Positions 50,816-51,899 of a stretch of 64,000 nt of DNA are shown piece after piece. Position numbers and translations under genes: made by a program. The stretch lies in assembly GCA_024743115.1 (NCBI GenBank), contig JANSXC010000022.1, positions 43,645-107,644 on the forward strand, in the 5' to 3' direction. Within the stretch, counting starts at the first letter, position 1; each line of letters starts with the position of its first letter. Source of the DNA: a bacterium. Its GTDB lineage: Bacteria; Planctomycetota; UBA1135; UBA2386. Under the pieces are notes generated by a model. That model searched no databases. It was not told where the DNA came from and was given only the letters and a program-made list of their open reading frames with translations.

Positions 50816-51253
50816 ATGCTAGCCGCCGGACAACCCGCTCCCGATTTCTCCGTTGCCGACGAGTCCGGCAACGTGCACCGTCTCGCCGACTACGCCGGCA
50901 AGACCCTCGTGCTCTGGTTCTATCCCAAGGCCGATACGCCCGGTTGAACGGCGCAAGGATCCGGACTCCGTGATCGAGTCCAGCAGTTCGAAGCCAAGAA
51001 CGCCGTCATCCTCGGCGCCTCGACGGACACCGCGGCCGAGAACGCCGCCTTCAAGACCAAGTTCGCCTTCCCGTTCCCGCTGCTCTGCGACACCGACCAC
51101 GCGCTGGCCAAGGCCTACGGTGCGATCACGGACGACGCGCAGTACGCGACGCGCGCGGCCGCCGTGATCGGCCCCGACGGCAAGATCACCCACTACTGGC
51201 CCAAGGTCGACGCCAAGACGTTCCCCGCGACGGTGCTCGCCGAACTCGGCTGA
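50816..51253 (+). CDS. peroxiredoxin (BCP/PrxQ-like) with in-frame UGA, probable selenocysteine, at the peroxidatic position
   Basis: MLAAGQPAPDFSVADESGNVHRLADYAGKTLVLWFYPKADTPG-U-TAQGSGLRDRVQQFEAKNAVILGASTDTAAENAAFKTKFAFPFPLLCDTDHALAKAYGAITDDAQYATRAAAVIGPDGKITHYWPKVDAKTFPATVLAELG. UGA at 50945..50947; same frame continues to TGA at 51251..51253. Confidence 0.88.
50963..50981 (+). promoter_or_regulatory. candidate bacterial SECIS hairpin
   Basis: GGACTC-CGTGATC-GAGTCC: 6-bp stem, 7-nt loop containing GU; stem begins 15 nt after the UGA codon. Confidence 0.65.
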
Positions 51254-51332
51254 ATCGACACGCGCGGCCACTGAGGCGATTCGCCGGCTCCTCCTGGGCC
51301 CCGGGCTCGGCGCCGGGCATCATGAGCGCGCC

Positions 51333-51899
51333 ATGACTGCTCTCGCCGCCCTGTGGCTGCCGATTCTGCTGTCGGCGGTCTTCGTGTTCGTCGTGAGTTC
51401 CATCATCCACATGGTGCTCCCGATCCATCGCAAAGACTTCGGCAAGGTGCCGGACGAAGACGAGGTCCGTGCCGCGATCCGCAAGGCCAGCCCCGCACCG
51501 GGTCAGTACATGATCCCGTGCGCGCCCGACATGCAGGCGGCCGCAACCCCGGAGTTCAAAGCGAAGCTCGACGAGGGCCCCGTCGCGACGATGATCGTGC
51601 GGCCCAACGGGCTGTGGGGTCTCGGGCCGGCGCTGCTGAAGTGGTTCGTGTTCTCGCTCGTCGTGAGCACGTTCTGCGCCTACCTCACGGCGATCCGGAA
51701 CGCACCCGGCGCCGAGGCCAAGGTCGTCTTCCAGATGACGGGTGCGATCGCGACGCTCGGCTACGTCTTCTCCCACGTCCACGAATGGACGTGGAAGGGT
51801 CTCCCTACGGCGGTCATGGTGCGTTTCGCGATCGACGGCGCGATCTACGCGATGGTCACGGCCGCGACGTTCGCCTGGCTCTGGCCGGCCGCGGCGTAG
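51333..51899 (+). CDS. hypothetical integral membrane protein
   Basis: Hydrophobic N-terminus WLPILLSAVFVFVVSSIIHMV and further TM-like segments. Confidence 0.7.
   Translation: MTALAALWLPILLSAVFVFVVSSIIHMVLPIHRKDFGKVPDEDEVRAAIRKASPAPGQYMIPCAPDMQAAATPEFKAKLDEGPVATMIVRPNGLWGLGPALLKWFVFSLVVSTFCAYLTAIRNAPGAEAKVVFQMTGAIATLGYVFSHVHEWTWKGLPTAVMVRFAIDGAIYAMVTAATFAWLWPAAA

Follow-up and report, generated by a model that had tools for sequence, protein, structure and literature searches.

A predicted selenocysteine-containing PrxQ/BCP-type peroxiredoxin gene in a planctomycete genome

The frame at positions 50816-51253 of the window (the whole stretch of DNA analysed, 64,000 nucleotides) very probably encodes, as judged from its sequence, a thiol peroxidase of the PrxQ/BCP type whose peroxidatic residue is selenocysteine (Sec). 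It is very likely a functional selenoprotein gene, as opposed to a pseudogene, a sequencing error or the product of a reassigned genetic code; the actual insertion of Sec and the peroxidase activity of the product are what we infer from this. Standard gene callers would miss, split or drop such a gene.

Reading frame and protein family

50816..51253, + strand: predicted Sec-containing PrxQ/BCP-type peroxiredoxin gene, 145 codons plus stop, TGA read through as Sec
50945..50947, + strand: TGA codon 44, predicted Sec at the peroxidatic position (TPG-U-T); TGA in 45/100 homologs, TGC/TGT in 55, none other

The preliminary description had noticed an uncalled frame that runs on past a TGA for 101 codons to a second TGA, and the translation bears it out. 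The sole internal stop is the TGA of codon 44, 101 codons follow it, and the frame closes at the terminal TGA (51251-51253). Read through, positions 50816-51256 give MLAAG...ADTPG*TAQGSGLRDR...TVLAELG*, and a Pfam AhpC-TSA match covers residues 5-126 of this protein (2.1e-35), spanning both sides of the TGA. A bacterial selenoprotein is marked by an in-frame UGA that stands in place of a conserved Cys and has homologous sequence before and after it, and this is found here. The best NCBIfam matches of the read-through protein are PrxQ models, although the scores fall under the strict PrxQ/BCP equivalog cut-offs of what are narrow functional models (NF053650, 108.5 of 260 bits; PRK09437, 97.6 of 140 bits). 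The AlphaFold2 model of the read-through protein (mean pLDDT 97, pTM 0.91) has its best solved fold matches among BCP/PrxQ proteins, to which the closest solved sequences also belong; their peroxidatic Cys in TPGCT aligns with residue 44, in agreement with the earlier placing of the UGA at the catalytic Cys of that motif. Residues P37, T41, 44 and R113 are invariant in the homolog alignment, so that both the PxxxTxxC/U motif and the conserved Arg are present.

Codon 44 among homologs

The class search, made in 154 genomes, returned many relatives whose frame holds a single TGA, besides others without any, while 80 loci came out of a scan of bacterial and archaeal genomes, spread over Planctomycetota, Acidobacteriota, Myxococcota, Rokuibacteriota, Binatota, Nitrospinota and others; relatives of the Sec peroxiredoxin were not found in viral contigs. 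Across 100 distinct homologs, any codon other than TGA (45) or TGC/TGT (55) at position 44 was seen 0 times. The genes with TGA, which come from several phyla, are intact and of full length. This does not agree with the possibility, raised in the preliminary description, that this UGA might be confined to decayed copies. Sec and Cys forms are intermingled in the tree, which needs 12 state changes, at least 8 of them forced by well-supported branches. Among the loci, L038, from one genome of the same taxonomic order, carries two tandem TGA-containing peroxiredoxin genes (997-1446 and 1498-1953), the upstream copy reading TPG-U-R, not TPG-U-T.

The gene of the same-genus genome (70% identity; identical to L052, isolate HKST-UBA81, Planctomycetota MAG) keeps both the TGA and the open frame. 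Compared with it codon by codon past the TGA, the window gene is identical at 45, differs synonymously at 21 and non-synonymously at 34, and the changes at codon positions 1, 2 and 3 number 21, 22 and 36. This third-position excess indicates that a coding constraint of moderate strength persists downstream of the TGA. A pseudogene, i.e., an ordinary Cys peroxiredoxin disabled by a TGC to TGA nonsense mutation, is very unlikely: the two codons are indeed one base apart, and Cys stands at codon 44 in the sister genes of this family (class search group f1), but the TGA is common to the same-genus genome and to many intact genes of Planctomycetota, Acidobacteriota, Myxococcota and others, and both a matching hairpin and the coding constraint lie downstream of it. 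As a minor event, termination at codon 44 with internal re-initiation downstream, giving two products, is compatible with the sequence; as an account of the gene it is most unlikely, since the catalytic residue would be lost, whereas the downstream part is conserved in frame and position 44 is always TGA or Cys.

Sec machinery and genetic code

Decoding of codon 44 as Sec would need components that the preliminary description had placed outside the window, and the search of the genome located them: tRNA-Sec on contig C51 (76.6 bits; SeC with anticodon tca according to ARAGORN), selB on contig C13 (338.9 bits), selA on contig C19 (448.1 bits) and, adjoining selA, selD (362.7 bits). All four matches are above curated cut-offs, and the selA/B/C/D set is thus complete. 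The selD gene (L019 1501-2421) is itself a putative selenoprotein gene with one in-frame TGA, in the motif SGSG-U-AAKL; Sec-type SelD with such an in-frame TGA motif is a known form.

UGA still serves as an ordinary stop in this genome, since TGA ends 5 of the 7 neighbouring genes checked and Trp is written TGG in 39/39 cases in neighbouring genes, where Cys is TGC or TGT. A genome-wide reassignment of UGA, e.g., to Trp or Cys, for which no supporting points were found, is contradicted by this usage as well as by the dedicated tRNA-Sec and the presence of selA, selB and selD, and can be considered vanishingly unlikely.

As for the co-occurrence of the TGA form with selB, the latter is found above cut-off in 139 of the 154 class genomes, and the within-class test is without power because selB is nearly universal there. 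Among 50 genomes of the wider set, selB is present in 26/28 with the TGA form versus 12/22 with the Cys form (p 0.002, supporting only, as related genomes are not independent). Two genomes of the wider set have the TGA form and no selB match, probably on account of incomplete assemblies. The same probably applies to three genomes of the class search (G068, G069 and G010, two of which share one genus) that have a one-TGA peroxiredoxin match and no selB match at E<=1e-50.

A candidate SECIS hairpin

50963..50981, + strand: predicted bacterial SECIS hairpin, overlapping the CDS (GGACTC 50963-50968, loop CGTGATC 50969-50975, GAGTCC 50976-50981)
50958..50975, + strand: competing hairpin GATCCGG / ACT / CCG-(T)-GATC, belonging to the minimum-energy fold of the 46-nt stretch

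A hairpin beginning 15 nt past the TGA had been put forward in the preliminary description as a plausible SECIS. Its presence and position stand, and among homologs it follows the TGA, but its own stability lends no support and was rejected as SECIS evidence: against synonymous recodings the hairpin is unexceptional (z +0.6; 73% fold as well), and in the 46-nt stretch an alternative fold beats it. The competing hairpin is related to the SECIS form of Acidobacteriota and Myxococcota homologs. The Rfam scan of the region returned no SECIS and no other meaningful RNA match.

The support is comparative. A hairpin at the fixed offset is found in 43/45 TGA forms versus 6/55 Cys forms, with a p value (4e-19) that is optimistic, as the scoring rules were set after seeing the TGA forms. 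Two forms of it occur, namely a six-pair stem with the loop CGUGAUC, as in the window (type A; 21/45 TGA forms, 0/55 Cys forms), and a stem of eight pairs capped by a GUU loop, which is found chiefly in Acidobacteriota and Myxococcota. Less exposed to the post hoc rules are two further checks. Folding compared with synonymous recodings of the same protein gives a mean z of -1.48 for TGA forms versus +0.28 for Cys forms (p 5e-13), and among 8 Sec/Cys pairs that are phylogenetically independent, hairpin and TGA go together in 5.6 on average, with the opposite in 0.0 (median p 0.03), this test using the same hairpin definition as the 43/45 versus 6/55 count. Within the 21 type-A sequences, which were selected for forming the stem and whose 100% pairing is therefore not evidence, two stem pairs change on both sides (7 cells), a result reached by 0/500 shuffles. 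One compensatory change separates the stems of the window and the same-genus gene (GGACUC/GAGUCC versus GGAUUC/GAAUCC). In neighbouring genes, each of the codons of the loop region (GGA, CGT, GAT and CGA) is one of the less used choices; that of CGT and CGA recurs in TGA homologs. A SECIS role is thus predicted for the window hairpin from its homologs, the single sequence supporting it weakly.

That an error of sequencing or assembly produced the TGA of codon 44 is extremely unlikely, considering that independently assembled genomes, including the same-genus one, have the same TGA, that the 100 homologs have either Cys or TGA and nothing else, and that a SECIS-like hairpin accompanies the TGA and is absent from the Cys forms apart from the six counted above.

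Proposed mechanism and recycling

50960..50962, + strand: Ser49 codon TCC, site of the resolving Cys in many PrxQ
51086..51088, + strand: Cys91 codon TGC in PLLCDTD, the one further Cys of the protein and a possible alternative resolving thiol

SelB carrying Sec-tRNA-Sec, components found in this genome, would bind the hairpin just past codon 44, and Sec would be inserted at the UGA instead of termination. By analogy with the family, the selenolate at residue 44 would then attack H2O2 or organic peroxides and be converted to a selenenic acid. With Ser at position 49, the usual U44-C49 bond is precluded, and the enzyme is probably reduced either directly by thioredoxin or another thiol, in a 1-Cys-like manner, or through Cys91.

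The preliminary description had seen in Ser at the resolving position a sign of a different recycling mechanism. The residue is indeed Ser, but its occurrence is not linked to Sec: Cys49 is kept in 26/45 Sec forms (58%) versus 34/55 Cys forms (62%), and the independent-pairs test gave no significant link between Sec and Cys49 loss. The idea that the loss of Cys49 is tied to selenium was accordingly rejected, its absence being equally common in Cys homologs. Cys91 is present in 37/45 Sec forms (82%) versus 51/55 Cys forms (93%), and in 38/40 proteins without Cys49 versus 50/60 with it (p 0.12, not significant), so that Cys91 is a possible resolving thiol. In atypical 2-Cys PrxQ the resolving Cys lies at +5 or in helix alpha3, and the window protein has Ser49 and Lys80 at these places. 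The latter aligns with Cys84 of PrxQ from Xanthomonas campestris (XcPrxQ), which we take to be the resolving Cys, in helix alpha3; the mutant entries C48S and C84S of XcPrxQ are among the solved-fold matches. It can tentatively be proposed, at somewhat less than even odds, that recycling of the Sec peroxiredoxin takes an unusual route, in which either Cys91 of the PLLCD loop is the partner or the protein is reduced directly, as a 1-Cys selenoperoxidase, and that the SECIS behind its decoding has a CGUGAUC loop, not GGUC. To our knowledge, a selenylsulfide geometry of the U44-Cys91 type has not been described for PrxQ.

Neighbourhood and other putative selenoproteins

51333..51899, + strand: small membrane-protein-like gene downstream of the peroxiredoxin, no Pfam match

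In the same-genus genome this small gene is conserved and again lies next to the Sec peroxiredoxin. In the genome of the window, which appears to be rich in redox selenoproteins, 10 of 22 AhpC-TSA matches have one in-frame TGA, the window gene included. Among the nine further TGA-containing AhpC/TSA loci (L135, L137, L138, L140, L141, L142, L143, L144 and L153), there is a second TPG-U-T peroxiredoxin, which is extended at the N-terminus and has Cys at position 49; seven are UxxC proteins (C three residues past U) and one reads T-U-PPF. Five of the UxxC genes (L137, L138, L141, L142 and L144) share an identical hairpin after the TGA, CACGAGC-GGUC-GCUCGUG, and the only exact copies of CACGAGC-GGTC-GCTCGTG in the assembly are those five sites (L156-L160). 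The GGUC apical loop of this hairpin resembles the classic E. coli SECIS; the window loop CGUGAUC differs from the GGUC loop of these five putative selenoprotein genes.

Comparison with known systems

A Sargasso Sea survey (Zhang et al., 2005, PMC1088965) assigned 43 Sec peroxiredoxins with a TXXU motif to COG1225, a bacterial survey counted 12 Sec peroxiredoxins, including homologs with a T/SxxU/C site (Zhang et al., 2006, PMC1794560), and a 2026 review tabulates Prx with TxxU and cites experimental PrxU work, setting it apart from families marked only as predicted (PMC13188914). For Planctomycetota, Sec machinery and selenoproteins have been reported in a genome paper (PMC4807772). The COG1225 Sec peroxiredoxins are, like the window gene, of the BCP/PrxQ type, with Sec as peroxidatic residue, TxxU and widespread Cys homologs (PMC1088965, PMC1794560, PMC13188914); unlike them, the window protein is without Cys49. 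The Planctomycetota lineage of the window gene is not treated for Sec peroxiredoxin in the portions available of the four papers (PMC1088965, PMC1794560, PMC13188914, PMC4807772). PrxU of Eubacterium acidaminophilum (NF040737), known from experiment to be a Sec peroxiredoxin, has the peroxiredoxin fold in common with the window protein, but the latter is of the PrxQ type and scores 47.7 of 270 bits against NF040737, far under the cut-off. PrxQ of X. campestris (5iiz and others) and BCP of Burkholderia (5enu) have the same fold, the TPGCT site and about 31% identity to the window protein; they use Cys, whereas the window protein would use Sec.

Sec peroxiredoxins of the TxxU type have thus been known since 2005, and the window gene adds another, namely a well-supported predicted selenoprotein in a planctomycete whose genome holds many putative redox selenoproteins. 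With its repeated switches between Sec and Cys and its variable resolving Cys, the family is well suited to asking what a peroxidase gains from selenium, and likewise to following the gain and loss of SECIS structure alongside UGA.
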